Origin: Leuconostoc pseudomesenteroides KCTC 3652
GTDB lineage: Bacteria > Bacillota > Bacilli > Lactobacillales > Lactobacillaceae
Assembly: GCF_014634745.1 (NCBI RefSeq)
Contig: NZ_BMBP01000006.1
Location: forward strand, 1-64,000
DNA: 64,000 nt
Direction: 5' to 3'
Numbering within the stretch: position 1 is the stretch's first letter; each line of letters starts with the position of its first letter. This document shows, piece after piece, positions 15,565-64,000 of the stretch. The position numbers and the translations under genes were made by a program. The notes below the pieces were generated by a model. It was not told where the DNA came from. It made no database searches and was given only the letters and a program-made list of their open reading frames with translations.

Positions 15565-18204
15565 ATGGAAGCGTTCCGAAAGGGGATTAAAGAAACAATA
15601 ACATCACATCAAGTTGATGTGCAAAATGGCTTATCGTCACAACAGGTGACACAAAGTCGGCAAGAAAATGGTGCTAACGTATTTGACGCTGAGAAAAAAG
15701 TTTCATTATTTAAAAAAATATTACTCAGTTTAAATGACGTTGCTACCATTATTTTATTGATTGCAGCGGTGATTTCATTTGTTGCGACTTATTTAGAATC
15801 AAGTGGTAATTACTTTGAAAGTTTGTTAATTGTTGGTATCGTCGTCATCAATTCAGCATTGGCTATTGTTCAAGAAGGTAAGGCAGAGGATTCGTTAGCA
15901 GCACTACAAAATTTAAACCGCACCCAAGTGAAAGTTTTGCGCGATGGTCATATTGTGCAAATTGACGCTGATGACGTCGTTTTAGGTGATGTTTTAGTTG
16001 TCCAAAATGGTAGTGTCATTGCTGCTGATGCGCGTTTGATTGAATCGGTTGAACTGCAAGCTGAAGAGTCGGCTCTGACTGGCGAAAGCTTACCTGTTGA
16101 AAAAGACGCGAATGCGACATTTGAGTCAGACAATAACATTGATTTAGGTGAACGGATTACAATGGTGTATCGTGGGACCACAATCGTTCATGGACACGGT
16201 CGTGCAGTGGTTACAGCTGTTGGTATGCAAACAGAAATGGGTAAAATTGCCAGTCTGTTGCGTAATGAGTCGAAAACGCCGTTGACGCCTTTGCAACGTC
16301 GCTTAGTGCAATTAGGGAAAAACATTTCTTGGTTAGCGATTGGTGCTGCCGTGATTGTTTTGGGACTAGGCATTGCGCAAGGCATGGATCTTAAGCATAT
16401 CTTTTTGACAGCCATTTCATTGGCAGTTGCGGTAGTGCCAGAAACTTTGGCTGTTATTGTGACGATGACATTGGCGCTTGGTGTGCAAAGGATTGCGCAA
16501 AAGCACGCCATCATTCGTCGTTTGCCAGCCGTTGAGACATTAGGAACAACCAATATTATTGCGTCTGATAAAACAGGTACGTTAACGCAAAACAAAATGA
16601 CTGTTCGCAAAGTTTGGCATGATCAGCACGACGATTTGTTGGATATCGCTGATGGTTTAGATACTTCAGCTCAGGAGGTGCTATCATTGGCCGCCATATC
16701 AACCAATGTGGCGGTTAAATCAGTGAATGATCAAAAGGTCTACGACGGCTTGCCAACTGAAGTGGCCTTGGTACGTGCCATTGAATCAGAAACTTCACGT
16801 GAACAGCTTTTATCACAATATCCACTTGTCGATCAGGTACCATTTAACTCGACAAAAAAGCGTATGACCACTGTTCACAAACGTCCAGAAGGTGGCTACA
16901 TAGCAATCACAAAAGGCGCTTTTGATGTCTTATTGCCAATGGTCAAACATGGCGATCGTCAACGGGCTGAACAAGTGAACAAAATGTTCGGCGAGCAGGC
17001 TTTGCGTGTTCTAACAATTACACACAAAAACTTTGATGTCATGCCAGAAGAACCAACGCAAGATTTCTATGAGCAGGATTTAACTTTGGTTGGTTTAGTT
17101 GGTATCATTGATCCACCACGACCTGAATCAGCGCCAGCCGTCGAAAAAGCACGACAAGCCGGTGTACGTACCATTATGATTACTGGAGATCACGTCGAAA
17201 CAGCCAGCGCAATTGCTCGTGAAATTGGCATTTTGCGTGAGGGTGATCAAACAATTACTGGTTCAGAATTAGCTAAGTTGTCCGATCAAGAATTAGATGA
17301 AAACGTACAAAGTTACAGTGTTTACGCACGTGTGACGCCAACTGATAAAATCAGAATTATCAAATCATGGCAACGTCAGGATGCAACAATTGCCATGACT
17401 GGTGATGGTGTTAACGATGCACCAGCCTTGAAAGCCGCAGATGTAGGTATTTCTATGGGTGAAACAGGAACAGATGTGGCCCGTGAAGCATCAGATATTA
17501 TTTTGACAGATGATAATTTTGCGACGATCATTAACGCCATTTCTGAAGGACGTGGTGTTTATGTTAAAGTCCGTAAAACAATTAATTTCTTATTAAGCGC
17601 TAATATTTCTGAGCTATTAGTGATTTTAATTGCCATGTTGTTAGGCTGGGGTTCACCTTTGTTACCGGTTCATTTGCTGTTCATCAACCTAGTGGCCGAC
17701 GGATTACCGGGTTTTGCACTGAGTCGAGAACCAATGTTGACAAATGTTATGAACCAACCGCCAATGCCCAAAAATGCCAAGTTATTTGGACAAGGGCTTG
17801 ATCGACAAATTGGGTTGAATGCAATATTGTTTGCGGTAGTGACGCTAATTGCCATTTGGATTGGCCAAAAATTAACATTAGGAGGATTACAGCCTAATGA
17901 ACAAGTTGGACAAACAATGGCATTTATCATCTTATCGTTAACTTCGATTTGGCACGTCTTTAATATTCGATCAGAAAAAACGCTGTTTGCAATCAGCTAT
18001 GGTGCCAATAAGTCGCTAGTCAATATGGCGATAATCGCGACATTGATTACTTTAGCTATTTCGTTAGTACCACTGACACAGACATTATTCGGCTTAACAG
18101 CGCTTTCAATTGCTCACTGGGCAGTAATTTTGGTATTGTCAGTATTACCAACTATTGTCATCGAGTTATTCAAACGCATGCGCCCCAACTTATTTAAAGT
18201 CTAA
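15565..18204 (+). CDS. P2-type cation-transporting ATPase (Ca2+/Mn2+ type)
   Basis: 879 residues. Actuator TGES motif (LTGESLPVEKD), phosphorylation site DKTGTLT, hinge TGDGVNDAPALK and ten probable helices match PMR1/SERCA-like pumps. Ion ligands by SERCA comparison: Glu in M4 (VVPETLAV), Asn and Glu in M5 (LSANISELL), Asn and Asp in M6 (NLVADGLP). So site residues are largely kept, but M4 reads PETLAV rather than PEGLP/PEALP and M6 has Ala for Thr. Likely exports Ca2+ or Mn2+; Leuconostoc accumulates much Mn, so Mn2+ deserves consideration. Monocistronic, behind a long leader. Confidence 0.9.
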   Translation: MEAFRKGIKETITSHQVDVQNGLSSQQVTQSRQENGANVFDAEKKVSLFKKILLSLNDVATIILLIAAVISFVATYLESSGNYFESLLIVGIVVINSALAIVQEGKAEDSLAALQNLNRTQVKVLRDGHIVQIDADDVVLGDVLVVQNGSVIAADARLIESVELQAEESALTGESLPVEKDANATFESDNNIDLGERITMVYRGTTIVHGHGRAVVTAVGMQTEMGKIASLLRNESKTPLTPLQRRLVQLGKNISWLAIGAAVIVLGLGIAQGMDLKHIFLTAISLAVAVVPETLAVIVTMTLALGVQRIAQKHAIIRRLPAVETLGTTNIIASDKTGTLTQNKMTVRKVWHDQHDDLLDIADGLDTSAQEVLSLAAISTNVAVKSVNDQKVYDGLPTEVALVRAIESETSREQLLSQYPLVDQVPFNSTKKRMTTVHKRPEGGYIAITKGAFDVLLPMVKHGDRQRAEQVNKMFGEQALRVLTITHKNFDVMPEEPTQDFYEQDLTLVGLVGIIDPPRPESAPAVEKARQAGVRTIMITGDHVETASAIAREIGILREGDQTITGSELAKLSDQELDENVQSYSVYARVTPTDKIRIIKSWQRQDATIAMTGDGVNDAPALKAADVGISMGETGTDVAREASDIILTDDNFATIINAISEGRGVYVKVRKTINFLLSANISELLVILIAMLLGWGSPLLPVHLLFINLVADGLPGFALSREPMLTNVMNQPPMPKNAKLFGQGLDRQIGLNAILFAVVTLIAIWIGQKLTLGGLQPNEQVGQTMAFIILSLTSIWHVFNIRSEKTLFAISYGANKSLVNMAIIATLITLAISLVPLTQTLFGLTALSIAHWAVILVLSVLPTIVIELFKRMRPNLFKV

Positions 18205-18241
18205 AAAGAACCAGCCACAATTTTGTGAGCTGGTTCTTTTT
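18203..18241. terminator. Bidirectional terminator
   Basis: AAAAAGAACCAGC / GCTGGTTCTTTTT, perfect 13-bp stem extended by CACAA/TTGTG. Serves the ATPase (+) and the 18249 gene (-). Confidence 0.95.
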
Positions 18242-18248
18242 GTACTGA

Positions 18249-18713
18249 TTATTTAAGTAATTGGTCTTGTGCGATGATAAATTGGGTGAGCGTTTCATCG
18301 TTAATACGCTGATTATGTTGTTTTAAAAAGCGTCGATACAAAAATCCAATTCTTGGTTGAAAAATAAATGTTGTTGGTGCGCTAAAGTCATCTTCTAATA
18401 GTTGATAAGTTCGAATGGCGCTTGCAATTAAAATTTGTTCTGCCTGATTTGCAATTAACGATAAGTCGTTAGTTTCTTCAAATAAAAATTGTTTCTCAGC
18501 AGCAGCTAATGCTTGCTGAAATTGATTGAGATTGTCTGGTTCGATAGCACTATCTTGAGCAACGCTCAGCATCGTTTGTTTAAAGCTGTCAATGGCAGCC
18601 GGTGTGGCAGCCGATGTTAATTCGAATCGTTCAAACGGCATACCGTTGGGCGTTGTGTGCGTTTCATAGTGAAACCATTGTGGATCAGTTACAAAGTAGG
18701 GGGTGTTAGTCAT
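18249..18713 (-). CDS. Hypothetical protein, third gene of the NatAB-like operon
   Basis: 154 residues, soluble, acidic, no signal peptide or helix long enough for a membrane. An aromatic N-terminus (YFVTDPQWFHYETH) is followed by probable alpha-helices with many Gln and Ala. Not recognised. It starts 24 bp after the ABC permease gene with a weak CAGG SD, so it is probably co-transcribed and may serve the exporter. Confidence 0.7.
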   Translation of the reverse strand: MTNTPYFVTDPQWFHYETHTTPNGMPFERFELTSAATPAAIDSFKQTMLSVAQDSAIEPDNLNQFQQALAAAEKQFLFEETNDLSLIANQAEQILIASAIRTYQLLEDDFSAPTTFIFQPRIGFLYRRFLKQHNQRINDETLTQFIIAQDQLLK

Positions 18714-27838: not shown

Positions 27839-28396
27839 ATGACAGTCTACACAAAGACAATCACCGCTGGCTTAGCATTATTATTAGCTGGCGCGCCATT
27901 AGTTGGCACAGTGAGTGCTGATAACATAGCTAACTCAAATGGAACGGTATCGTTTTCAGATCAAGATGGTTCGTTAGTGCTCGCATCAGCAGATAATGTG
28001 ACGTTCCAAAATCAGGACTTATCAAACATTTCTGATTTTACGCCTGACGCTTCCAACGGAACCACGGGTAAGGTAACGTTGGAACAAACATCGGCTAATC
28101 CAAGTGGTACTTATAGTATTCAAGTTCAACAAACGGGTGACTGGAATAACAGTTATTCGAACACGATGGCTACAGCAGAAGCTTTGCCAATCATGTATAA
28201 TTCAATGCCGTTATCAAGTCCAGTAACCTTTGTAGACAGCGCAGCGGCTCCGGCACGTGGTGTAAGTACTAAAGCTTTTAACCATGATTCAAAAAGTTTT
28301 GCGTTAGATTTGTCAGGTACTGGTGATCTTAGTAATGCTTTGGACCAAAGCTTGTTATCTGAACTGACATGGACGTTGACAAATAGTGTAGAATGA
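27839..28396 (+). CDS. WxL-domain surface protein
   Basis: 185 residues. Signal peptide ending SADN (cleavage near residue 27). The WxL domain occupies most of the mature protein, with TGDWNNSYSN as the upstream W region and the C-terminal motif SELTWTLTNS near the end. WxL proteins bind peptidoglycan non-covalently, and a WxL-interacting protein is encoded at 21353. Short, single-domain form (CscB-like). Confidence 0.88.
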   Translation: MTVYTKTITAGLALLLAGAPLVGTVSADNIANSNGTVSFSDQDGSLVLASADNVTFQNQDLSNISDFTPDASNGTTGKVTLEQTSANPSGTYSIQVQQTGDWNNSYSNTMATAEALPIMYNSMPLSSPVTFVDSAAAPARGVSTKAFNHDSKSFALDLSGTGDLSNALDQSLLSELTWTLTNSVE

Positions 28397-28648
28397 GTTT
28401 AGTTTCAAAGTGTTGTTTGTTGGCAAGCGTTTAAGTAATTTTAGTGTGGCGGCTTGACGTTGTCACAGCTAAAAAAGCTAGGCATACACGGCGTTCTAAA
28501 ATGGCGATTGTATTTTTACTGGGGTAAGGAGCGCCAGTAAAGTCTTAACTGGTGCCAGTAATGAAACGACATAATGGGGATACGCTTGCCACATAATACT
28601 TTGTTCAGACTCGGTAGAAAAAATGACAATTTTGTCGTTTTTTTTTTG
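28397..28648 (+). ncRNA. Structured non-coding segment ending in a terminator (candidate)
   Basis: No ORF. TTTACTGG (28515-28522) pairs perfectly with CCAGTAAA (28534-28541). GCGCCAGT (28531-28538) can instead pair with ACTGGTGC (28548-28555), so the two hairpins are mutually exclusive. A terminator AAAAAATGACAA / TTGTCGTTTTTT ends the segment at 28618-28648. It could be the long 3' UTR of the WxL mRNA, an attenuator or a separate small RNA. Confidence 0.35.
28618..28648 (+). terminator. Terminator downstream of the WxL gene
   Basis: AAAAAATGACAA / TTGTCGTTTTTT with a minimal loop and a T10 run. Confidence 0.85.
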
Positions 28649-28759
28649 AACATGACTATATGATATTAGATGTCACCAAGGAGCACAGTCATTAATTTGT
28701 TCATGATAAGATCTTGCTTTCGCCTCAGAATGGGCACAATTTTTGATTAAAATGAGGTT

Positions 28760-28821
28760 GTAAATAAGCGATGATATTATTTACAGATAGATAGCAGCTA
28801 TTGGCGGATTGACGCTAATAG
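28760..28821 (+). promoter_or_regulatory. Two inverted repeats upstream of the LecB-like gene
   Basis: GTAAATAA-N9-TTATTTAC (28760-28784) is a perfect 8-bp inverted repeat and a candidate operator. CTATTGGCG / CGCTAATAG around GATTGA (28798-28821) is a 9-bp hairpin in the probable 5' leader, followed by SD AAGGGG. No convincing -35/-10 pair was found between 28650 and 28850. Confidence 0.45.
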
Positions 28822-28849
28822 AATCAAGAATAGAAAAGGGGAACAAACA

Positions 28850-29230
28850 ATGTTAAAAGAAGTTAAAAATGAAGCACTTTCATTTCCAAAAGGCGTTTTC
28901 TTCTTAGTCAACATGACGACGCAAACTAGTGCGCCGATGGACGTGACAATTGAGGATGAAAATGGTGCACAATTGTTTCACGGTAGCCGAACAGGGACTG
29001 ATCCTTTACCAGTAATTAGTGGAACATTTACTTCATTAAGTGGAAAAGCAAGAATTATCATTCGCTGTGAGACAGCTACTAATCTTGATGTGCTATCTGA
29101 GCATTTGGACATAAAAAAAGCAGATGGTGGTCTAATCATGCGAGAATATGTCTATGTCGCTGAAGACTCGACTGACGCAGACTATAATGATCTCTATGTG
29201 TCAATTGTTGGTTGGCAACATAAAGGATAA
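28850..29230 (+). CDS. PA-IIL/LecB-like calcium-dependent lectin
   Basis: 126 residues, no signal peptide. The order of landmarks matches Pseudomonas aeruginosa LecB (PA-IIL). GVFFLVN (Asn21) stands for the GVTAFAN calcium Asn, and MTT occupies the sugar-specificity loop (SSG in PA-IIL). A central TFTSLSGKARIIIRCE strand region corresponds to LNSGSSGKVQVQV. The acidic loop EDSTDADYND (Glu105, Asp109, Asp111, Asn113, Asp114) matches EDGTDNDYND. The protein ends in Gly126, as PA-IIL ends in Gly114, whose carboxylate completes the neighbour's calcium site. All expected calcium ligands are therefore present. Sugar (fucose, mannose) is not determined. It lies between surface genes and the rbs regulator, and a strong terminator follows. 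Confidence 0.75.
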   Translation: MLKEVKNEALSFPKGVFFLVNMTTQTSAPMDVTIEDENGAQLFHGSRTGTDPLPVISGTFTSLSGKARIIIRCETATNLDVLSEHLDIKKADGGLIMREYVYVAEDSTDADYNDLYVSIVGWQHKG

Positions 29231-29240
29231 ATATTTGATG

Positions 29241-29264
29241 GGCAACGGTTTGTTGCCTTTTTTT
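29241..29264 (+). terminator. Terminator of the LecB-like gene
   Basis: GGCAAC / GTTGCC stem, 5-nt loop, T7. Confidence 0.9.
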
Positions 29265-29388
29265 GTTGCAGTGCGCTATATCAGTTTTATGATTAACGTT
29301 TATGATATACAAACAGAAAAGTGGCGAGTTTTATTATTTTGCGTTATATTAATTTGAAAAAGCTAAATAATGAAAGGAATAGAACTAA

Positions 29389-30390
29389 ATGAAAAGGGTA
29401 TCAATTAAAGATGTAGCCAAGTCGTCAGGTGTTTCAACGACAACTGTATCTCAAATTTTGAATGGTAAAGGTGGACGCTTTTCCGACCAAACCAGAGACA
29501 GAGTTTTCAAAGCACGTGATGAGCTTGGCTATATTGCTAGTATTGCGGCCAAAACTTTAAAAGGTTTTCATTCCATTTTGATTGGTGTAATCGTGCCATC
29601 TTTTCGCCTTCCATTTTTTGCCAACTTAATTGAAAGTATGGAGAAACATGAAGCGTACGGCGTACGTTTGGTATTTTTTGCTGCAGCAGATAATAAAATT
29701 GAAAGTGCCATTCGTTCATTAGTTGCAAGAGGTGTCGGTGGGCTGATTATTGGCAGATCAATTCCAGAAAGCATGAAAATTTATCAACTGTTAGCTAAAC
29801 AGCATATTCCTTACCTGGTGTTAGATCAAAATAGTAATCAGCAAGCGCATGACCGTATCATTGTAGATGAGTTTCGAGGTGGGGGACTAGTTGCTAATCA
29901 TTTCATAGGTTTAGGACATACGAAATTGGCTATCGTTTCGCCTCAAAAAATGACACATAATATGTTGCAGCGCCAGCAAGGGTTTGTAGAAGTGTTAGCC
30001 CCAAAAAATATTCAGCCCATCATCATCAATACGGCAGATTTGTCAAAGCATAGTGGTTATGCTGTGACAAAAAAAGTTATTGCCAGTAAAGTTAGTGCTG
30101 TTTTTGTATTGAATGATGCGATGTCATTGGGTCTAATAAGGGGCCTTATTGATAGTGGTTTGAATATTCCCAGAGACATTTCTCTGGCAGGTTATGATGA
30201 CGACGATTATGCACAATTTGTAACGCCAGCTTTAACTACGGTCAGTCAACCGGTTACGGACATTGGGATTTCAGCGATCAAACTTTTAATGAATAGAATT
30301 AATTATCCAAACTTGCCCGCGCAAATTCAGAAATTCAATTTAACGTTGATAAAACGTGAATCCACTAGCATCTATGGCGGAACTGCATAA
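29389..30390 (+). CDS. rbsR: LacI-family regulator, ribose operon repressor
   Basis: 333 residues. N-terminal HTH and hinge (SIKDVAKSSGVSTTTVSQILNG), periplasmic-binding-protein-like effector domain, and C-terminal GYDDDDYAQFVTPALTTVSQP. Adjacent to rbsDACBK, so RbsR is the natural assignment. It has its own promoter (TTGCAG 29266-29271, 16 bp, TATGAT 29288-29293). The operator is probably the GAAAGCGCTTACA element at 30478-30490. Confidence 0.88.
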   Translation: MKRVSIKDVAKSSGVSTTTVSQILNGKGGRFSDQTRDRVFKARDELGYIASIAAKTLKGFHSILIGVIVPSFRLPFFANLIESMEKHEAYGVRLVFFAAADNKIESAIRSLVARGVGGLIIGRSIPESMKIYQLLAKQHIPYLVLDQNSNQQAHDRIIVDEFRGGGLVANHFIGLGHTKLAIVSPQKMTHNMLQRQQGFVEVLAPKNIQPIIINTADLSKHSGYAVTKKVIASKVSAVFVLNDAMSLGLIRGLIDSGLNIPRDISLAGYDDDDYAQFVTPALTTVSQPVTDIGISAIKLLMNRINYPNLPAQIQKFNLTLIKRESTSIYGGTA

Positions 30391-30439
30391 ACAATTTTGA
30401 CAAAATTTATATTTCTAATCATTTAATTGTGCTTTTCCC

Positions 30440-30490
30440 TTGACATTGAGATAACTAAGCGGTAAATTATAAATAAAGAAAGCGCTTACA
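30440..30490 (+). promoter_or_regulatory. rbs operon promoter with cre/RbsR operator
   Basis: TTGACA (30440-30445), 17-bp spacer, TAAATT (30463-30468). GAAAGCGCTTACA (30478-30490) at about +1 fits both cre (CcpA) and a LacI-family operator. Confidence 0.8.
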
Positions 30491-30552
30491 TTATTTGTTC
30501 AGCTTATTTTTTTGAACTAAAAGTAATACGTTTTACTAAAGAAGGAGAAGAA

Positions 30553-30951
30553 ATGAAAAAAATCGGCGTATTGAATTCGGATCTATCAGCTGTCATTGCT
30601 GATATGGGACATCAAGATTGGTTAGCAGTCGGGGATGCTGGTACTCCAGTACCTAAGGAAACTTCAAAAATTGATTTGAGTGTCAAAAATGGGTTGCCAC
30701 ACTTTATAGACGTACTGGATACAGTTCTAATAGAATTGGAGGTTCAAAAAATTTATTTAGCGGAAGAAATTAAAGCAGCCAATCCTGAAATCTTAACAGA
30801 AGTGAAGAATAGATTTTCTGATCGGGTCATCATAGAATTTATTTCCCATGAACAATTAAAGCAAAACTTAAAACGTAGCAAAGCATTTGTTAGAACTGGT
30901 GAAATGACACCGTATGCTAATATCATTCTTGAAAGTGGTGTCGTATTTTAA
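30553..30951 (+). CDS. rbsD: D-ribose pyranase
   Basis: 132 residues, normal length. Converts beta-D-ribopyranose to the furanose form used by ribokinase. [30 protein letters not shown] contains the catalytic His/Asp region (MGHxD), and the C-terminal [13 protein letters not shown] is diagnostic. First gene of the operon; SD GAAGGAG. Confidence 0.95.
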
Positions 30952-30972
30952 TGAAAAGGAAAAGTGAAAAAC

Positions 30973-32466
30973 ATGAAAATTGATATGCTCGGTATTTCTA
31001 AATCATTTGGTAATAATCATGTTTTACGGGACGTAAACTTTCATTTGGATAATGCTGAAGTGCATGCATTAATGGGTGAAAATGGTGCCGGTAAGTCAAC
31101 ACTAATGAATATTTTGACTGGGTTACTGAATGCTGACTCAGGACAAATTTTGGTTGACGACAAAGAAGTACATTTCAATGGACCCAAAGACGCAGAAGAA
31201 CATGGTATTAGTTTTATTCATCAAGAAATGAATAATTTCGGTGAGATGACCGTTTTAGAAAATATGTTTCTGAACAAAGAAGTAAAAAATAAGTGGGGCA
31301 TGATTGATGAAAAAACAATGCGTGCAGAAGCGTTAAAAATATTCCAAACGTTAAATATTAATTATAATTTAAACGCAATGATTGGTGATCTAAGCATTGG
31401 TGCACAGCAAATGATTGAAATCTCTAAGGCAATGATGTCTGAAGCCAAAGTGATTATTATGGATGAACCAACAGCGGCTTTAACTAATTCTGAAATCACA
31501 TCGTTGTTTAAAACGGTTAATCATCTAAAGGCGCAAGGTGTCAGTTTTATTTATATTAGTCACCGTATTGAAGAAAATATGGAAATTGCTGACAAAATTA
31601 CAATTATGCGTGATGGCCACACGGTTGATGAATCATTTATTTCTGAAACAAACGTTGAAAAAATAGTAACTAATATGGTGGGTAGAGATATTGGTGATTT
31701 TTATCCTGAACGACACGCTGAGACAGGCAAAACGGTTTTAGAAGTTACTCACTTGGAAAGTAATGATAAGTTTCATGATATTAATTTCACGGTTAAAGAG
31801 GGTGAAATATTAGGATTTTCAGGATTAATGGGATCGGGTCGAACTGAAATTATGCGTGCCATTTTTGGAGTTGATCATCGAAATGGTGGTGATGTTGCCA
31901 TCAATGGTAACAAAGTCAAAATTATGTCACCTTCAGATGCCATTAACCAAGGCATTGGATTTGTAACTGAAAATCGTAAAGATGAAGGTTTGATTTTAGA
32001 TTTCTCAGTTTCTGAAAATATTATAATGGCTAGCTTAAAAGATTTAGTCAAAAAACATTTCATAGATGAAAAAGTGAAAGATGACTTTGTGAATTTGCTA
32101 GTAAAACGTTTAACTATAAAAACAGATGGTACAAACATTGATGCTGGTAGTTTATCAGGTGGTAATCAACAAAAAGTAGTTTTGGCAAAATGGATTGGTG
32201 CTGGCAGTAAGATATTGATCCTGGATGAACCAACTAGAGGTGTTGATGTTGGAGCTAAACGAGAAATATATGATCTTATCAATGAATTAACTAATCGTGG
32301 GGTCGCTATTATTATGGTTTCTAGTGACCTGCCAGAGGTTCTGGCAATGAGCGATCGCATTGCTGTGATGTATGAAGGGAATATGATGGCTATTGTTGAT
32401 AATAGTTCACATGTAACAGAATCAGACATTATGACACTTGCAACTGGAGGAAAAGCGAATGACTAG
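30973..32466 (+). CDS. rbsA: Ribose ABC importer ATP-binding protein
   Basis: 497 residues. Two fused ATPase domains: Walker A GENGAGKST in the first, a variant GLMGSGRTE in the second. Signatures are LSIGAQQMIEIS and LSGGNQQKVVLA, Walker B IIMDEPTAAL and ILDEPTRGVD. ATG 30973 is chosen because MKIDMLGISKSFG aligns with RbsA starts; an in-frame GTG at 30964 lies closer to the SD AAAAGGA and cannot be excluded. Overlaps rbsC by 8 bp. Confidence 0.95.
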   Translation: MKIDMLGISKSFGNNHVLRDVNFHLDNAEVHALMGENGAGKSTLMNILTGLLNADSGQILVDDKEVHFNGPKDAEEHGISFIHQEMNNFGEMTVLENMFLNKEVKNKWGMIDEKTMRAEALKIFQTLNINYNLNAMIGDLSIGAQQMIEISKAMMSEAKVIIMDEPTAALTNSEITSLFKTVNHLKAQGVSFIYISHRIEENMEIADKITIMRDGHTVDESFISETNVEKIVTNMVGRDIGDFYPERHAETGKTVLEVTHLESNDKFHDINFTVKEGEILGFSGLMGSGRTEIMRAIFGVDHRNGGDVAINGNKVKIMSPSDAINQGIGFVTENRKDEGLILDFSVSENIIMASLKDLVKKHFIDEKVKDDFVNLLVKRLTIKTDGTNIDAGSLSGGNQQKVVLAKWIGAGSKILILDEPTRGVDVGAKREIYDLINELTNRGVAIIMVSSDLPEVLAMSDRIAVMYEGNMMAIVDNSSHVTESDIMTLATGGKAND

Positions 32467-33445
32467 TACTAGAAATGAACAGAAAGTGGTGAAAGAAGTG
32501 AAAGACAGAAAAATATTGCAGCAATTGTCAGGATTAGGACCAGTTCTTGCACTGATAGTACTAGCTTTAATTACGACGGTGATGAATCCAAGTTTTCTTG
32601 ATCCCAACAACTTGCTCAATCTTTTGCGACAAGTATCAATAAATGGTTTGATTGCCTTTGGTATGACCTTTGTCATATTAACAGGTGGTATTGATTTGTC
32701 GGTTGGTGCTATTTTGGCACTGACATCAGCACTTTCAGCAATGATGATTACAAGTGGTGTGCCAACATTGATTGCTATGTTAATCGGTATTGTATTTGGT
32801 GGTCTGTTAGGTGGTCTGAATGGGCTGATTATTACAAAAGGCGGAGCTGCACCATTCATCGCTTCGTTGGCGACAATGACAATTTTTCGAGGTGCAACCT
32901 ATGTGTTCACTAACGGTAATCCGATTACAAGCAAAGCCATGAACAATAGTTTTATTTTCCAATTTATTGGGCGCGGTTACTTTTTCGGCATTCCGGTGCC
33001 TGTCATTATCATGTTGATTTCATTCTTTATTCTGTACATTCTGTTACACAAAATGACATTTGGACGTAAGACCTATGCATTAGGTGGTAATGAAAAAGCT
33101 GCATTTGTATCAGGTATTAAAGTCAATATAACAAAAACATGGATTTACGTTATTTCCGGCATTATGAGTTCAGCTGCTGGTATGATTTTAATTTCACGTT
33201 TAAGTTCGGCACAGCCGGATGCAGGAACAGGTTTTGAAATGGACGCTATTGCTGCGGTCGTATTGGGTGGCACTTCACTTGCCGGTGGTCGTGGTCGTAT
33301 TTTCGGAACATTAATTGGTGCATTGATTATTGGAACACTAAATAACGGTATGAATTTGATTGGTATTTCTAGCTTCTATCAGCAAATTGTCAAAGGAATT
33401 GTGATTATTATTGCTGTTTTGTTAGACCGTCGAAAGAAAGCTTAA
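32459..33445 (+). CDS. rbsC: Ribose ABC importer permease
   Basis: 328 residues, BPD_transp_2 family, about ten helices. Diagnostic segments: VILTGGIDLSVGAILAL, GLLGGLNGLIITKG, ALGGNEKAAFVSGI, VLGGTSLAGGRGRIFGT. ATG 32459 has SD TGGAGG with 8-nt spacing inside the rbsA end, so the upstream in-frame ATG is rejected. Confidence 0.95.
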   Translation: MTSTRNEQKVVKEVKDRKILQQLSGLGPVLALIVLALITTVMNPSFLDPNNLLNLLRQVSINGLIAFGMTFVILTGGIDLSVGAILALTSALSAMMITSGVPTLIAMLIGIVFGGLLGGLNGLIITKGGAAPFIASLATMTIFRGATYVFTNGNPITSKAMNNSFIFQFIGRGYFFGIPVPVIIMLISFFILYILLHKMTFGRKTYALGGNEKAAFVSGIKVNITKTWIYVISGIMSSAAGMILISRLSSAQPDAGTGFEMDAIAAVVLGGTSLAGGRGRIFGTLIGALIIGTLNNGMNLIGISSFYQQIVKGIVIIIAVLLDRRKKA

Positions 33446-33464
33446 GTGAGGGGTTTAAATTATT

Positions 33465-34421
33465 ATGACAAAGAAAATATTAGGTATTGCTGTTGGTGCT
33501 TTAGCACTGATTTACGCTATTGTGTTCGTTGTTTCCGGTCGAGCCGTGTTCTCTATCAGCAATCCCTTTCAAACGAATACGGTTTTGCAGCACAAGAAAC
33601 CGAGTGAATTAAAAATTGGTGTTTCTCTCTCTACTCTCAATAATCCTTTCTTTATTTCTATCAAACAGGGCGTTACAGAAACAGCTAAAAAATCTGGATC
33701 AAAAGTTCAGGTTTACGATGGACAAAATAGCACTAATAAACAGAGCAATGATGTTGAAGATTTAATTCAAAAAAAAGTTGATGTATTAATCATTAACCCA
33801 GTTGATTCCTCAGCTATTACACCGGAAGTGAAGTCGGCTAATGAAGCTGGTATTCCAGTTATCACAATTGATCGTTCATCAGATGGTGGAAAAGTGTTGA
33901 GCTTAGTTGCTTCTGATTCAAAAGAGGGTGGCAAAATGGCTGCTGACTTTATGATTAAAACACTGGGAGAAAAAGCAAAAATTGCTGAGTTGCAAGGGAC
34001 TCCAGGAGCTTCTGCTACGCGTGAACGCGGTGCTGGATTTGATAATACTGCTAAAGGGCATTTAGATATTGTGACAAAACAGACTGCAAATTTTGATCGT
34101 ACGGAAGGCTTAAATACTGCTGAGAATATTGCTCAAGCTCACCCTGACATCAAAGGATTGTTTTCTCAAAATGATGAAATGGCTTTAGGTGCTGTCCAAG
34201 CACTAAAATCAAATCCTGATATCGTTATTGTTGGATTTGATGGTTCTGTTGATGGCATTAATGCAGTCAAAAAAGGACAGATGGCAGCTACTGTGGCTCA
34301 AAAACCAAAAGAAATGGGTAAATTAGCAGTTCAAGCTGCATATAAATATTTCAAAGGCGAAAAAGTATCAAGTCAAATCAAATCACCTCTAGAATTAATT
34401 GTAGCGGATAAATATAAATAA
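33465..34421 (+). CDS. rbsB: Ribose-binding protein with N-terminal membrane anchor
   Basis: 318 residues. Peripla_BP_4 fold: KIGVSLSTLNNPFFISIKQG, INPVDSSAITPEV, ASDSKEGGKMAADF, FSQNDEMALGAVQAL, VGFDGSVDG are typical RbsB segments. The N-terminus is one hydrophobic helix (ILGIAVGALALIYAIVFVV) followed by SGRAVFS, with no lipobox Cys, so anchoring is by the uncleaved helix or the protein is released. Most Gram-positive RbsB proteins are lipoproteins. Confidence 0.92.
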   Translation: MTKKILGIAVGALALIYAIVFVVSGRAVFSISNPFQTNTVLQHKKPSELKIGVSLSTLNNPFFISIKQGVTETAKKSGSKVQVYDGQNSTNKQSNDVEDLIQKKVDVLIINPVDSSAITPEVKSANEAGIPVITIDRSSDGGKVLSLVASDSKEGGKMAADFMIKTLGEKAKIAELQGTPGASATRERGAGFDNTAKGHLDIVTKQTANFDRTEGLNTAENIAQAHPDIKGLFSQNDEMALGAVQALKSNPDIVIVGFDGSVDGINAVKKGQMAATVAQKPKEMGKLAVQAAYKYFKGEKVSSQIKSPLELIVADKYK

Positions 34422-34442
34422 CTATTTGAAAGGTTTGAAATA

Positions 34443-35390
34443 ATGAACAAGGTTGTCGTGATTGGAAGTTTAAACATAGATCTCATTACAAAAATAGGCC
34501 GCTTGCCACTGCAAGGAGAAACTATGTCTGTCAGGGAACAAGTAACAAGTTTTGGTGGAAAAGGTGCAAATCAAGCAGTTGCTGCAGCCAGACAAGGATC
34601 AGAAGTGACGTTTGTTGGCGCTGTGGGTAATGATGAAAACGGCGACGCTTTTAAAAAATTGTTACGTCAAGAAAATATCAACACGGATTATATTGTTTCA
34701 AAACAACAAAGTACAGGTTCGGCGGTTATTTTATTAGAAGAAAACGGGCATAATACTATTTTAGTAAATGGCGGAGCTAACGCTCGTCTAGATGTTGCTG
34801 ATATTCAAAATGCAAAACAGGTGATTGAGAAAGCAGACATTGTCGTTGCACAATTAGAAGTCCCAAGTGAAACTGTTATTGAAGCTTTTAAAATTGCCAA
34901 GAATGCAGGCGCAATGACTGTTTTGAATCCTGCTCCAGTTAGAAAACAATTAGATCAAGAACTCATCAATTATACTGATCTCATTGTTCCAAACGAAACT
35001 GAAGCAGCTGCACTAGCCAATGAAAATCCGACAACTGAAGTGGCAGTCATCGAAAAGACTATTTATCACAAATTGCAAGGGCAAGGATTAGAAAATGTTA
35101 TTATTACGTTGGGTGATAAAGGCGTTTACTATAAGGTTTTGAACAAAAGTCAGCTCTTACCAATTTTTAAGGTACAGACATTGGATACTACTGCAGCAGG
35201 AGACACATTTATTGGTACAATCGCTGCTAACTTACATGCTGATTATGCTAACTTAGAAGAAACTTTGTTGCGAAGTAGTTTAGCTAGCTCGATTGCAGTT
35301 AGTCGTGCAGGTGCAATTGCATCTATTCCTAACAGTAAAGATATTGAGGAACAGTTTAAAAAAAATAATGATAATACGAGGGTATTATAA
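34443..35390 (+). CDS. rbsK: Ribokinase
   Basis: 315 residues. PfkB kinase producing ribose-5-[18 protein letters not shown] and DTTAAGDTFIGTIA motifs are present; the second reads DTTAAGD, Ala for the first Gly, still common in this family. Overlaps the rpiA start by 1 bp (TAATG). Confidence 0.95.
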   Translation: MNKVVVIGSLNIDLITKIGRLPLQGETMSVREQVTSFGGKGANQAVAAARQGSEVTFVGAVGNDENGDAFKKLLRQENINTDYIVSKQQSTGSAVILLEENGHNTILVNGGANARLDVADIQNAKQVIEKADIVVAQLEVPSETVIEAFKIAKNAGAMTVLNPAPVRKQLDQELINYTDLIVPNETEAAALANENPTTEVAVIEKTIYHKLQGQGLENVIITLGDKGVYYKVLNKSQLLPIFKVQTLDTTAAGDTFIGTIAANLHADYANLEETLLRSSLASSIAVSRAGAIASIPNSKDIEEQFKKNNDNTRVL

Positions 35391-36064
35391 TGACAAAGCA
35401 AGATCTTTTTAAGCAAAAAGCAGCAAGAGCCGCCCTTGATTACATTAAAGACGGTATGATTGTTGGATTGGGCACAGGCTCTACTGTTAGCTTTTTGTTA
35501 GATTATATTTCTGAAAAAGAACTAGATATCACAGGTGTCACAACATCTAAAGATACGTCAAGAAAATGTCGTGCTTTGGGCATAAGAGTCGTTGATATTG
35601 ACATGGTTGATCATATCGATGTCACCATTGATGGTGCTGATGAAGTAGATGCCTACATGAACGGTATCAAAGGTGGTGGTGCTGCATTATTAATGGAAAA
35701 AATTGTCGCAAATAATTCTAAAACTAACATTTGGATTGTAGATGAAACCAAAGTTCATAGTGTATTAGGATCATTTCCATTGCCTATTGAAATTATTTCA
35801 TATGGTAGTGGTAAGTTGATTCAAAACTTTGAAGAAAAGGGTTACCATCCGGTTCTACGTCTTGACAATGCCGGGAATCCAGTTGTGACAGATACAGGGC
35901 ACAACATCATTGATTTGAATTTGCATTATATTGATAATCCTCAAGAATTAGCAGAATATTTAGAAAGCCAAGTTGGTGTTGTCGAACATGGTCTGTTTAT
36001 AAATATTGCAGATGTTGTCATTATTGGTGGTGAACAAATTGTCACTCACAATAGAAAGCAATGA
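35390..36064 (+). CDS. rpiA: Ribose-5-phosphate isomerase A
   Basis: 224 residues. VGLGTGSTVSFLLDYI phosphate-binding loop, DVTIDGADEVDA with the catalytic Asp, GGGAALLMEKIVA. Converts ribose-5-P to ribulose-5-P, leading to xylulose-5-P and phosphoketolase in heterofermenters, so its place at the end of the rbs operon makes metabolic sense. Confidence 0.95.
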   Translation: MTKQDLFKQKAARAALDYIKDGMIVGLGTGSTVSFLLDYISEKELDITGVTTSKDTSRKCRALGIRVVDIDMVDHIDVTIDGADEVDAYMNGIKGGGAALLMEKIVANNSKTNIWIVDETKVHSVLGSFPLPIEIISYGSGKLIQNFEEKGYHPVLRLDNAGNPVVTDTGHNIIDLNLHYIDNPQELAEYLESQVGVVEHGLFINIADVVIIGGEQIVTHNRKQ

Positions 36065-36094
36065 TGTGACAAAGAGTTTTATTGTAATACTGTT

Positions 36095-36125
36095 TAAAAA
36101 AAGCATGGCGGCGCCTTGCTTTTTT
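36095..36125 (+). terminator. Terminator of the rbs operon
   Basis: AAAAAAGCA-T-GGC / GCC-T-TGCTTTTTT stem with a short loop. Confidence 0.9.
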
Positions 36126-42649: not shown

Positions 42650-42679
42650 GATGTTTTCACGATTGTTTCTGAAAACATC
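42650..42679 (+). terminator. Terminator before the MFS gene
   Basis: Perfect 10-bp stem GATGTTTTCA / TGAAAACATC with a 10-nt loop and a moderately T-rich tail. Confidence 0.7.
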
Positions 42680-42713
42680 ATTGTTATTTTCTTCACAAAA
42701 ATTTGATAAACGA

Positions 42714-42743
42714 TTGACATTTTAGAGTGGAACCGGTTACAAT
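42714..42743 (+). promoter_or_regulatory. Promoter and cre of the MFS-sucrose phosphorylase operon
   Basis: TTGACA (42714-42719), 18-bp spacer, TACAAT (42738-42743). TGGAACCGGTTACA (42728-42741) fully matches the cre pattern TGNAANCGNTNNCA and lies between the promoter boxes. A LacI-type sucrose repressor site would look similar. TCTTCACAAA (42690-42699) upstream is the reverse complement of a motif at 2803 and 13548. Confidence 0.8.
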
Positions 42744-42780
42744 ATTATGGTAAGTGATTATCATAATTGAAGGAGATAAC

Positions 42781-43971
42781 ATGGTTAAACAAGATAGCCT
42801 GCTCACTAAGATTGCGTTTTTGGGCATTTCATTTGTCTTGACAAGTGCGTATGCTATTAACGGGGCATTGCCACAAATGACTGAGGCATTGCACATTTCA
42901 TCGACAGAGGCGCAGGTTTTGGCAACAACACCATCCATTACGGTGACAGTTTTTGTCCTATTGAGCAGCTTTATAGCTGCAAAGCTAGGTGACAAGAACA
43001 CTATCATTTTAGGTGTGACATTAGTAGGGTTAGCTGGTATTGTGCCAATGTTCACTGACTCGTACGTGATCATATTAGCATCACGGACAATACTGGGTGC
43101 TGGGTTAGGTATTTTTAATTCATTGGCAGTTTCTATGATTGCAGTGATGTACAATGGTAAAACACGTGCGGCGATGCTAGGATATCGCGCAGCTGCTGAA
43201 CAAGTGGGGCAAGCCGTTTTGACTTTGCTAGCCGGCTTGTTACTGGCGTTTGGATGGCGCGCAACATTTTTGGTCTATTTGATTGCCTTTCCAATCTTAT
43301 TCTTATTCATCAAACGCGTGCCTGATACCTCAGAGATGACGCCGTTACAATCGTCAAAATCTGAAAAGACAACAGTTGAAAAAATAACGCGAATTAGTCC
43401 CTTAGTGCTTGTCTTTACACTATTTGCTGCATTTTTAGTGATTGATTACATGGCCATCCAATTGAGCTTCCCTTTTATGGCAACTGAATTAAAAGGTGAA
43501 GGGTATAATACATCCCCAATCTTATCAGCGATGCTAATTGCTGCAACAGTTGGTGGCGTAACTTATGGCTGGTTTGTGGCGACTTTTGGTCGCTTCACAC
43601 TGCAAATTGGTTTGGTATTGATGGCAGTCTCTAACTTCTTAGTGGCCTTTTCACATGGCAATTTCATCATGTTGATTGCAGGGGTACTACTGATTGGTTT
43701 CCCACTACAATTAATTTCACCATTCATTTTTAATCAATTACCAAAATTGGGACCAGTTGCGCGTCAATCGTTGATTACTTCAATCATTTTGATTGGATTT
43801 AATGTTGGGGTCTTCGTTGAACCAATGTTTGTGGCGACTTTTGCCAGCTTGATTGGTCACGGTGGTGGCAGTGCTGCCGCATCAGCGTATGCTACAATTC
43901 CTTATTTGGGATTAGTACTGCTCATTATCGCAATCGTTACAGTTATTACTAGCAGAAAACAGGAGAAATAA
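42781..43971 (+). CDS. MFS transporter linked to sucrose phosphorylase
   Basis: 396 residues, 12 helices, with the AraJ/DHA1-like pattern ([16 protein letters not shown] between helices 2 and 3, [13 protein letters not shown]). That subgroup contains drug and sugar efflux proteins rather than classical sugar symporters. Its stop is 2 bp before the sucrose phosphorylase ATG and they share a cre-controlled promoter. This suggests a sugar-related substrate: sucrose uptake or export of a product such as fructose. ATG 42781 has SD GAAGGAG. Confidence 0.75.
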
Positions 43972-57162: not shown

Positions 57163-60024
57163 ATGGCAAAAACACAAATAGAAATTCGTGGTGCACGTGC
57201 ACACAATCTAAAAAACATTGATGTTGATATACCAAAAGATCGTTTGACTGTTGTCACGGGTTTGTCGGGATCTGGCAAATCATCGTTGGCATTTGATACT
57301 TTATATGCCGAAGGGCAGCGTCGTTATGTGGAAAGTCTAAGCTCTTATGCTCGCCAGTTTTTAGGTCAAATGGATAAACCAGACGTTGACTCGATTGATG
57401 GGCTATCACCTGCGATTTCAATCGATCAAAAAACAACCTCCAATAATCCAAGATCAACGGTTGGCACTGTTACAGAAATTAATGATTATTTTAGATTGTT
57501 ATATGCGCGAGTTGGTCGCCCAGATGATCCGGATGATGGCACAAAAATTATGTATACAATTGATCAAATGGTCAATGACGTACTCGAGCGGTTGCCTGAG
57601 GGGAGCCGATTGCAGGTTTTTGCACCAATTATTCAGCAACAGCGCGGCTCCCATGCTTCAGCATTTGATGTGATGCGGAAACAAGGCTACATTCGCGCCC
57701 GTGTTGATGGTGATTTGATTGAGTTAGACTCAGACAATAAGACATTAGATAAAAATGAAGCACACGATATTGATGTTATGGTTGACCGCATTGTTTTACG
57801 TGATAATTCTCGATCACGTTTATATGATTCAATTGAGTCAGCAGTGCGTCTCGCGGCTGGGCGCGTGACAATTGAGGTCGTATCACGAGATGAAAAAGCA
57901 GAATCAATTGTTTTAAGGTATTCTGATCATTACCTTGGCGAATTGAAAGATTTTCGTGTTGGTCGGCTAGAGCCACGACTATTTAGTTTTAATGCACCGC
58001 TAGGTGCTTGTGAATTTTGCCAAGGATTAGGCGTTACCCGTGAGGTTGATATTGATTTGGTTATTCCGGATCGGCACAAATCGCTTAACGAAGGGGCCAT
58101 CGTACCGTGGAATCCTATTTCATCTAACTATTATCCTGAAATGCTAAAGCAGTTTGCCGAACAATTCAAAATTGATATGGACAAACCGTTTGAGAAACTA
58201 ACTGCTAAACAACAAACACTCATCTTAAATGGCTCTGGCAATAAAGATTTTCATTTCCATTATGAAAATGATTTTGGTGGTGTTCGTGATGTTGACATAC
58301 CATTCGAAGGTGTGATTAACAACATTTCTCGTCGTTTTAACGAAACTAATTCTGACTTTACACGGGATCAGATGGCCAACTATATGACAGAGTTAACTTG
58401 TAAAGCATGTGGTGGCTATCGTTTGAACCCGGCAGCTTTATCAGTGAAAATTTCGGGCAAGCATATTGGTGAAGTTTCTGAAATGCCTGTTGACCAAGAA
58501 CTTAATTTTTTTAATGGTATCAGCTTGGGTCAACAAGATACAGAAATTGCGGCACCAATTATTAAAGAAATTAAAGATCGTTTGGGATTTTTGGAAAGTG
58601 TTGGCTTAAAGTATTTAACGCTTTCTCGTTCTGCTCGGACACTATCCGGTGGCGAGTCACAGCGTATTCGCTTGGCTACGCAAATTGGTTCTAATTTATC
58701 TGGTGTGTTATATGTTTTAGATGAACCATCTATTGGGCTGCACCAAAGGGATAATGACATGCTTTTGGCATCATTACAACGCATGCGTGATTTAGGTAAT
58801 ACGTTAGTAGTTGTGGAACATGATGAGGACACAATGCGTGCTGCTGACTACCTAATTGATGTTGGCCCTGGTGCTGGTGAACTTGGTGGAAAAATTGTTG
58901 CCAGTGGCACACCGGCGATTGTAGAGGCCAATCCCAACTCCTTAACGGGGCAATATCTATCCGGTAAAAAGTATATTCCCGTGCCGATTAAGCGTCGATC
59001 AGGAAATGGTGAGTACATTACCATTAAAGGCGCTAAAGAAAACAACCTTAAAAATGTCACCGTGAAGTTTCCTTTGGGGAAGTTTATTGCTGTTACTGGG
59101 GTGTCTGGATCAGGAAAGTCAACGTTAGTTAACACGATTTTAAAACGAGCCCTCAAGCAAAAACTAAACAATAATTCTGAAAAACCTGGCCGTTTTCGTG
59201 CCATTGATGGTGTTGAAAATATTGAACAAGTTGTTGACATTGATCAATCACCAATCGGGCGGACGCCTCGTTCAAATCCTGCTACTTATACTGGCGTATT
59301 TGATGATATTCGTGATTTGTTTGCACAGACAAATGAAGCAAAAATGCGTGGCTACAATAAGGGGCGGTTTTCATTTAATACCAAAGGAGGGCGTTGCGAA
59401 AATTGTCGTGGTGATGGTGTTATCAAAATTGAAATGAACTTTTTGCCAGATGTCTATGTGGCTTGTGAGGTATGTGGTGGCACACGTTATAATTCTGAGA
59501 CACTTGAAGTGAGCTACAAAGGCAAAAATATTTCACAAGTACTGAATATGACAGCAACTGAAGCACTTGATTTTTTTGCACCAATTCCTAAAATTGCCCG
59601 AAAATTGCAAACCATTAATGACGTTGGATTAGGGTATGTCAAATTGGGTCAATCAGCCACAACACTTTCTGGTGGCGAGGCCCAGAGAATGAAGTTGGCG
59701 TCGGAATTGCATCGTCGTACTAATGGTAAAACAATGTATATTTTGGATGAACCAACCACGGGACTTCATACAGATGATATTGCGCGTCTACTGCAAGTTC
59801 TTGAACGGTTGGTTGATGCTGGTAATACAGTGGTTGTGATTGAACATAATTTGGACGTGATTAAATCTGCAGATTGGTTGATTGATATGGGACCTGAAGG
59901 TGGTGCAGGCGGTGGTGAGGTATTAGTCACGGGCACACCCGAAAAAGTCATGAAAACAGAGCAGTCCTATACTGGACGTTATCTCAAAACAATTATTGAA
60001 CGTGACTTAGATCGCGGTAAATAG
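57163..60024 (+). CDS. uvrA: UvrABC excinuclease subunit A
   Basis: 953 residues, full length. Two ABC ATPase modules ([11 protein letters not shown] and [23 protein letters not shown] and [12 protein letters not shown]). Intact zinc modules: CEFC...CKAC and CENC...CEVC. Co-transcribed with uvrB (35-bp gap). Confidence 0.98.
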
Positions 60025-62345: not shown

Positions 62346-62948
62346 ATGTGGCCCGGAGTTATTGAACAAACTGCAAATGGACGTGAAAACTATGATTTAC
62401 CATCACGTTTATTAAAAGATCGTATTATTTTGGTTCAAGGAGAAGTCGAAGATAGTATGGCAACCTCGATTGTTGCTCAGTTACTATTTTTGGAAGCTCA
62501 AGATCCAAACAAAGAAATTTCAATGTATATCAACTCACCAGGTGGTTCTGTTACAGCCGGACTATCGATTACTGACACAATGAACTTTATTAAGGCGCCG
62601 GTAACAACAATCGTGATGGGCCTTGCGGCATCAATGGGTACTATTATTGCTGCTTCAGGTGAAAAAGGTCATCGTTATATGTTGCCAAATGCCGAGTATT
62701 TAATTCATCAGCCAATGGGTGGTGCTGCCGGTGGCACACAACAGACAGACATGGCAATTATTGCTGAACAATTGACCAAAACACGTGCAAAGTTGAACAA
62801 AATTTTGGCTGATGCTTCTGGTAAAGATTTGGATCAAATCGCGCACGATACTGAACGTGATAACTGGATGAGTGCCGAAGAGACATTGGAATACGGCTTT
62901 ATTGACGGTATTTTAACAAAGTCTGGTGATAAGCCTATCTCAAAATAA
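62346..62948 (+). CDS. clpP: ATP-dependent Clp protease proteolytic subunit
   Basis: 200 residues. Catalytic Ser in GLAASMGTI, His in LIHQPMGG, Asp in [10 protein letters not shown]. General protein quality control with ClpX/C/E. Order yvcK-whiA-clpP is typical. Confidence 0.98.
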
Positions 62949-62971
62949 AAACAACCGAGAGGTTGTTTTTT
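62947..62971 (+). terminator. Terminator of clpP
   Basis: AAAACAACC / GGTTGTTTT with a GAGA loop and T-rich tail. Confidence 0.9.
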
Positions 62972-62978
62972 AATGCAG

Positions 62979-63110
62979 AAAAAAAGCAGCTTCATCACGG
63001 CTGCTTTCATGAATTTAGATGTTGCGGGCATCTAAAAAATTCGAAGGAGAGTCATCTAGCGATGACGTTATTTAGGAGAGTTTCCAGCGCGTGTTGCTCT
63101 GGAATATCTA
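62979..63110 (-). ncRNA. Candidate small RNA with two anti-Shine-Dalgarno loops
   Basis: Read on the minus strand: hairpin 1 TTCCAG/CTGGAA (63082-63104); single-stranded CTCTCCTAAA (63071-63080); hairpin 2 GTCATC-GCTA-GATGAC (63051-63066); single-stranded CTCTCCTTCG (63042-63051). Hairpin 3 TTTAGATG/CATCTAAA (63014-63036) and terminator GCAGC/GCTGC with T7 (62979-63007) complete it. A promoter-like TTCACA-N17-TAGATA lies just upstream. About 125 nt, no ORF. UCUCCU is complementary to AGGAGA ribosome binding sites. Confidence 0.5.

Positions 63111-64000
<890 letters not shown>

Follow-up and report, generated by a model that had tools for sequence, protein, structure and literature searches.

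The region between clpP and the D-lactate dehydrogenase gene (ldh) of Leuconostoc pseudomesenteroides KCTC 3652 raises the question of whether a small regulatory RNA (sRNA) is encoded on its minus strand and, if so, by what means it would act. This intergenic region of 317 nt lies within a contiguous stretch of 64,000 nucleotides (the window), itself part of a 2.1-Mb genome (G000), and its neighbours yvcK, whiA, clpP and ldh are ordinary genes, all on the plus strand. A preliminary description had proposed a trans-acting sRNA that blocks translation through exposed sequences complementary to Shine-Dalgarno (SD) sites. Of that proposal, the minus-strand sRNA gene stands as the best reading, since the fold is strand biased and its terminator-like end is found in the minus direction only, whereas the anti-SD function is plausible, with predicted pairing at control level. 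The interpretation placed first here, held tentatively and at a little under an even chance, is a lineage-restricted intergenic sRNA gene of the pair L. pseudomesenteroides and L. falkenbergense, transcribed from the minus strand and acting by anti-SD pairing.

Architecture of the minus-strand element

The minus strand from 63104 to 62978 is predicted to form four consecutive hairpins, with a minimum free energy (MFE) of -36.2 kcal/mol. The features of the element and of the sequence next to it are as follows, with the basis of each given in brackets.

62978..63104, minus strand: candidate sRNA body of 127 nt with four hairpins (fold z-score, structure, identity in the sister genome)
63082..63104, minus strand: hairpin 1, TTCCAG.GC ... 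GC.CTGGAA (MFE structure)
63074..63080, minus strand: anti-SD-like copy 1, CTCTCCT, in linker 1 (sequence match, pairing probabilities)
63051..63066, minus strand: hairpin 2, GTCATC-GCTA-GATGAC (MFE structure)
63045..63051, minus strand: anti-SD-like copy 2, CTCTCCT, the first C of which pairs in hairpin 2
63011..63042, minus strand: hairpin 3 (MFE structure)
62978..63008, minus strand: hairpin 4 and tail, resembling an intrinsic terminator (MFE structure, sequence)
62950..62971, no strand assigned: clpP terminator-like hairpin, AACAACC-GAGA-GGTTGTT followed by a T run (formed in the 226-nt fold)

The four ordered minus-strand hairpins of the preliminary description are present in both the MFE and the centroid folds, and the 6-bp inverted repeat of hairpin 2 is also listed on the plus strand by the hairpin scan. 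The 5' end of the candidate is uncertain and may lie at 63104 or as far upstream as about 63163. Stability differs between the strands, the 127-nt body having a z-score of -4.30 on the minus strand vs -2.19 on the plus strand (500 shuffles), while a 140-nt piece (63104-62965) gives a z-score of -3.71, with 0 of 200 shuffles equally stable. Tiling the whole window in 127-nt pieces on both strands gave 1006 z-scores, of which 7, the locus included, are at -4.30 or lower; the tiled values are rougher than the 500-shuffle ones as they derive from 30 shuffles each. The strongest outlier of the tiling is found at 18162-18288 (z -7.4 minus, -5.0 plus), where convergent ORFs flank what is probably a strong bidirectional terminator.

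Hairpin 4 consists of a 9-bp stem, a 9-nt loop and a T7 run, and is terminator-like in the minus direction only. The terminator with seven T described earlier is recognisable as a terminator-like hairpin, four of its seven T lying within the stem. Its omission from the hairpin scan is probably due to the scan accepting loops of 3-8 nt only. The clpP terminator-like hairpin at 62950..62971 is T-rich past the stem on both strands and could serve the minus strand as a back-up terminator.

Both CTCTCCT motifs reported previously were recovered (63080-63074 and 63051-63045) and are mostly unpaired in the 127-nt form, with unpaired probabilities of at least 0.96 for all positions excepting the first C of copy 2, and of 0.99-1.0 for copy 1. 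Exposure of copy 1 varies with the length of the RNA: in a 186-nt form its unpaired probability falls to 0.14-0.23 at three positions, so that an RNA starting at about 63163 would have three copy 1 bases mostly paired. The double motif CTCTCCT-N15-30-CTCTCCT occurs once each in two of the 19 genomes of the genus and is absent from the other 17, and its reversed control occurs once, in G010. The well-ordered anatomy of the element is real, and is that of an ordinary kind of candidate sRNA.

On this anatomy, transcription of the minus strand would start near 63103 or 63163 and end at about 62978, at hairpin 4. The exposed CTCTCCT linkers would then pair with SD sequences of the AGGAGAG type and so keep ribosomes from binding several mRNAs.

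Known regulatory RNAs and putative targets

Within the window, no match to an Rfam family attains the gathering threshold. A lax Rfam search of 62900-63270 returned 10 weak matches (E up to 10), the best with an E of 0.19 and no csRNA among them. The best minus-strand match, to the Bacillus sRNA ncr1015 (E 0.57, 22.7 bits vs a threshold of 60), concerns the terminator end and was taken as chance. 6S RNA, which forms one long hairpin, gave no match to the element and was set aside. Among the open-access matches listed, titles and abstract beginnings name no such RNA in Leuconostoc or at this locus, and the available part of a survey of 6S RNA in lactic acid bacteria does not describe the clpP-ldh locus (PMC8414754).

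The closest parallels are offered by three groups of Gram-positive sRNAs. The csRNAs of the CiaRH regulon in Streptococcus are small RNAs encoded between genes that combine stem-loops and an intrinsic terminator with unpaired anti-SD sequences; they are under the control of a CiaR direct repeat, NTTAAG-N5-WTTAAG, located upstream of the -10 (PMC3091779). The same source counts 61 of them, 32 with two stem-loops, 16 with a terminator only and 13 of more complex form, and an unpaired CAU faces the start codon in 53 of the 61 (PMC3091779). The element shares the unpaired anti-SD sequence and the terminator with the csRNAs as there described (PMC3091779), but unlike most of them possesses four hairpins, and inspection by eye found no CiaR repeat upstream of the body, where a single ATTAAG is preceded 5 nt upstream by CTTTAT, which is not TTTAAG-like. 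A csRNA-like CAU does lie 10 nt 5' of copy 2, at a distance fitting that of a start codon, but by eye it is paired in hairpin 2; 5' of copy 1, none was seen within the 127-nt body.

LhrC of Listeria carries several redundant CU-rich motifs able to pair with the SD region, and is known as five homologous copies with three UCCC sites (two in loops) under LisRK control (PMC4132741). The element likewise repeats a CU-rich motif able to pair with the SD, the property described there for LhrC (PMC4132741). Unlike LhrC, it is single-copy and bears its two CTCTCCT in linkers. RoxS is grouped with RsaE as a C-rich sRNA. RsaE and FsrA are introduced in the same source as C-rich sRNAs of low-GC Gram-positives with a motif directed against the SD (PMC4132741). 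From LhrC, RsaE/RoxS and FsrA alike the element differs in that its 127-nt body lacks UCCC and that it matches no Rfam family at threshold. By analogy, it would work like the csRNAs and LhrC while being a member of neither family; the comparison is worded as one of working rather than of identity because the CiaR repeat (by eye) and the multicopy and UCCC features are absent. If expressed, the element would represent an anti-SD sRNA in a food-fermentation genus, outside the streptococcal and listerial families.

The genome holds 35 matches to AGGAGAG-N3-10-ATG vs 4 to the reversed pattern. Of 30 loci fetched, 29 were examined (a position filter dropped L063), and 24 of these open ORFs of at least 81 codons. 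The remaining 5 of the 29 open ORFs of at most 24 codons, about the control number, and the plus-strand ORF at the present locus is one of these. Sites similar to the complements of the linkers were counted as well: that of linker 1, allowing up to 3 mismatches in 16 bases, has 23, the locus itself among them, vs 28 for the reversed control, and that of linker 2 has 12, again including the locus, vs 10. For possible targets, complementarity beyond the SD core, the part that pairs, stayed at the level of the control. Over 83 start regions on a single contig, in silico replacement of the motifs weakened the mean predicted pairing from -6.5 to -3.5 kcal/mol. The cofold score is crude, lacking a full treatment of site accessibility, and covers these regions and candidates preselected from 34 loci. 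Motif-dependent scores of this kind are expected of any CU-rich anti-SD stretch.

The three best target candidates are L048, L070 and L052, with the start regions of the first two scoring best. These two start regions have no match in the sister genome by blastn, an empty result which alone says little. The product of L048 is a RepA_N replication initiator of 96 aa, while that of L052 has no Pfam family. L052/L108 is the best candidate present in both species, with the TAGGAGAGT core kept; pairing around the SD spans 12 bases at the L052 site and only 9 in the sister (by eye). No single target stands out for the candidate sRNA.

Two observations concern these loci in their own right. About 45 nt upstream of the SD of L052 and L108 lies a cre-like palindrome, GAAAGCGCTTTC, conserved in both species and followed by a 94-aa ORF without family match. 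At G000:C2:117586-118522, two neighbouring genes (L047 and L048) are both led by AGGAGAG, and with L048 encoding a short initiator of the plasmid-type RepA_N group, the segment is possibly mobile or plasmid-derived.

Distribution and divergence of the locus

The element was found by blastn in 2 of 19 genomes of the genus, its own, where it is single-copy, and that of the sister species L. falkenbergense. A 20-base piece of it retrieved one record from a collection of genome contigs, L. falkenbergense LMG 10779, the own genome possibly being excluded from that collection. The element was absent from a plasmid collection searched at the DNA level, and a 20-base pattern from it had no match in viral contigs; a single 24-nt match in a phage DNA search (E 0.6) was taken as chance. 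A covariance model, built from the two identical sequences, was run with stricter filters on 397 genomes of the family, evenly sampled from a larger group, and gave 7 at E of 1 or below, of which only the own (1.9e-34) and sister (1.8e-34) genomes are strong. The remaining five, at E 0.13-0.34, were attributed to chance. As only two copies were found and both are identical, there is no covariation to count.

With laxer filters, 7 of the 19 genus genomes matched the model at E of 10 or below, five of them besides the pair (E 0.26-10). These five were rejected as homologues, the CTCTCCT pair being absent from the alignments of four; re-scoring gave E values of 0.0023-0.079, smaller only through the little, preselected DNA that was searched. 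The best of them, L109, is situated between two ORFs, presumably NusG-like and rplK-like. A similar hairpin-plus-terminator-like stretch, matching the model weakly and without CTCTCCT, occurs in G017 and G008 (L110 1501-1629, plus strand; L111 1501-1629, minus strand), and is possibly another structured RNA.

In the clpP tree, the own and sister genomes are sisters with support of 100/99 or better. The next relatives, G013, G010, G014 and G018 (grouping support 88/91), harbor a different sequence after clpP, apparently another gene. The clpP-ldh distance was measured in 14 of the 19 genomes, leaving out those four and L019 (in which ldh is nonetheless present), and amounts to 316-317 nt in the pair vs 125-274 nt in the other 12, 11 of which do not exceed 210 nt. 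The gap of the pair exceeds those 11 relatives by about 105 nt or more. Most simply, the element would have been gained in this species pair, loss or fast divergence elsewhere being the alternatives.

Overall, the own and sister sequences show 5,096 differences in 48,885 aligned positions (10.4%), as mapped from plus-strand matches of at least 1000 bases, shorter and minus-strand matches being dropped. The element is contained in a difference-free run of 285 nt (62898-63182), the longest in the 48,885 aligned bases. The second longest, of 202 nt at 42662-42863, surrounds the start of an ORF at 42754. Of the 14 intergenic regions in which 80 or more bases are aligned, delimited by gene limits chosen by hand, that between clpP and ldh has the lowest divergence (6/317, the next being 4/86), and a 57-nt gap elsewhere is also without difference. 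Elsewhere in the window, about 8 kb with ORFs (28146-36119) lie between collinear blocks, with no match above 300 nt to the sister stretch listed, and may be an island particular to the strain or species.

Divergence is also low in the adjoining parts of both flanking genes. In the last 41 codons of clpP there are 2 third-position differences, against 49 in 200 codons overall (permutation 0.0003), and the first 48 codons of ldh have 1, against 44 in 244 (permutation 0.00035). Selection on the RNA alone is disfavoured because synonymous sites of clpP and ldh are affected as well. A recombination tract at about 62826-63411 would explain the low divergence as well as selection would, and on these alignments conservation gives neither proof nor refutation of function.

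Such a tract is central to the strongest rival account, according to which the element is a structured, non-regulatory stretch of terminator hairpins and chance palindromes, identical in the two species through recent recombination, with any minus-strand transcript being promoter noise ended by the hairpins. The depressed synonymous divergence on both flanks agrees with this, as does a coding stretch at 58783 that is nearly as undiverged (9 differences vs 8 in 586 nt). Promoters at chance level, the lack of homologues found in the searches above and targets not exceeding the control point the same way. What it explains less readily is a fold whose stability is rare in the window and biased to the minus strand, a complete terminator-like end together with two exposed identical motifs, which exceed the order of leftovers, and an intergenic gap that exceeds those of 11 of the 12 measured relatives by about 105 nt or more. 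We regard this account as a serious possibility, though one that would hold in the minority of cases. A silent element would show that terminator-rich intergenic sequence readily mimics an sRNA.

If the preferred reading of a lineage-restricted sRNA gene is correct and the element is expressed, its restriction to two sister species would make it a useful case for following the origin of such RNAs. A more specific version can be envisaged, in which a very young regulatory RNA gene arose in the clpP-ldh interval of the ancestor shared by the two Leuconostoc species, with two anti-SD copies tuned to AGGAGAG start sites, and works as a multi-target translation repressor. This version is considered unlikely, but if true it would provide a tractable case of sRNA birth.

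Start of transcription and the opposite strand

Three promoter-like sites are available upstream of the hairpins.

63105..63133, minus strand: TTCACA-N17-TAGATA, the site of the preliminary description; weak, start at about 63098, within hairpin 1
63110..63137, minus strand: TTTATT-N16-TATTAT, alternative site; start at about 63103, score at chance level
63170..63198, minus strand: TTATCA-N17-CATAAT, alternative site; start at about 63163, best minus-strand score (13.6), at chance level

Scores were judged against a background of 300 shuffles of the 186-nt region, whose best scores have a mean of 13.7, and by this measure no minus-strand promoter exceeds chance, the best reaching 13.6. Both alternative sites outscore the first. 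The promoter TTCACA-N17-TAGATA claimed earlier exists as sequence but scores 12.5, below the shuffled mean, and would place the start inside hairpin 1; it was not retained. Over the 317 nt between clpP and ldh, the own and sister sequences differ at six positions only, all within 63183-63192, in the spacer of TTATCA-N17-CATAAT, both hexamers of which are unchanged in the sister. This confinement would fit a promoter at 63170-63198, though the differences form a single cluster.

This site, 63198-63170, lies directly upstream of the ldh promoter region and points the other way, with two terminator-like hairpins ahead of it in the minus direction, which could also suggest a divergent transcript from the ldh promoter region. 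The hairpins would then mainly terminate, shielding clpP from antisense read-through, with no action in trans. Termination of a stray transcript, however, needs one hairpin rather than four with duplicated exposed motifs, and the promoter scores no better than chance, for which reasons little credence is given to this explanation.

Short ORFs cross the element on both strands, encoding 24 aa (63062-63136) and 57 aa on the plus strand and 65 aa on the minus strand. That the functional strand is the plus strand, where AAGGAGAG-N10-ATG opens the 24-codon ORF and CTCTCCT would merely complement its SD sequences, is improbable: AGGAGAG is indeed followed by ATG at 63045-63064, in a pattern strongly enriched in the genome (35 vs 4) and mostly situated at long ORFs, but matches leading to ORFs as short as this one are about as numerous as the control expects (5 of 29), the 24-aa product has no family match, the best promoter-like site on the plus strand in 62950-63060 scores only 11.0, lower than on the minus strand, and both the fold and the T run favour the minus strand.
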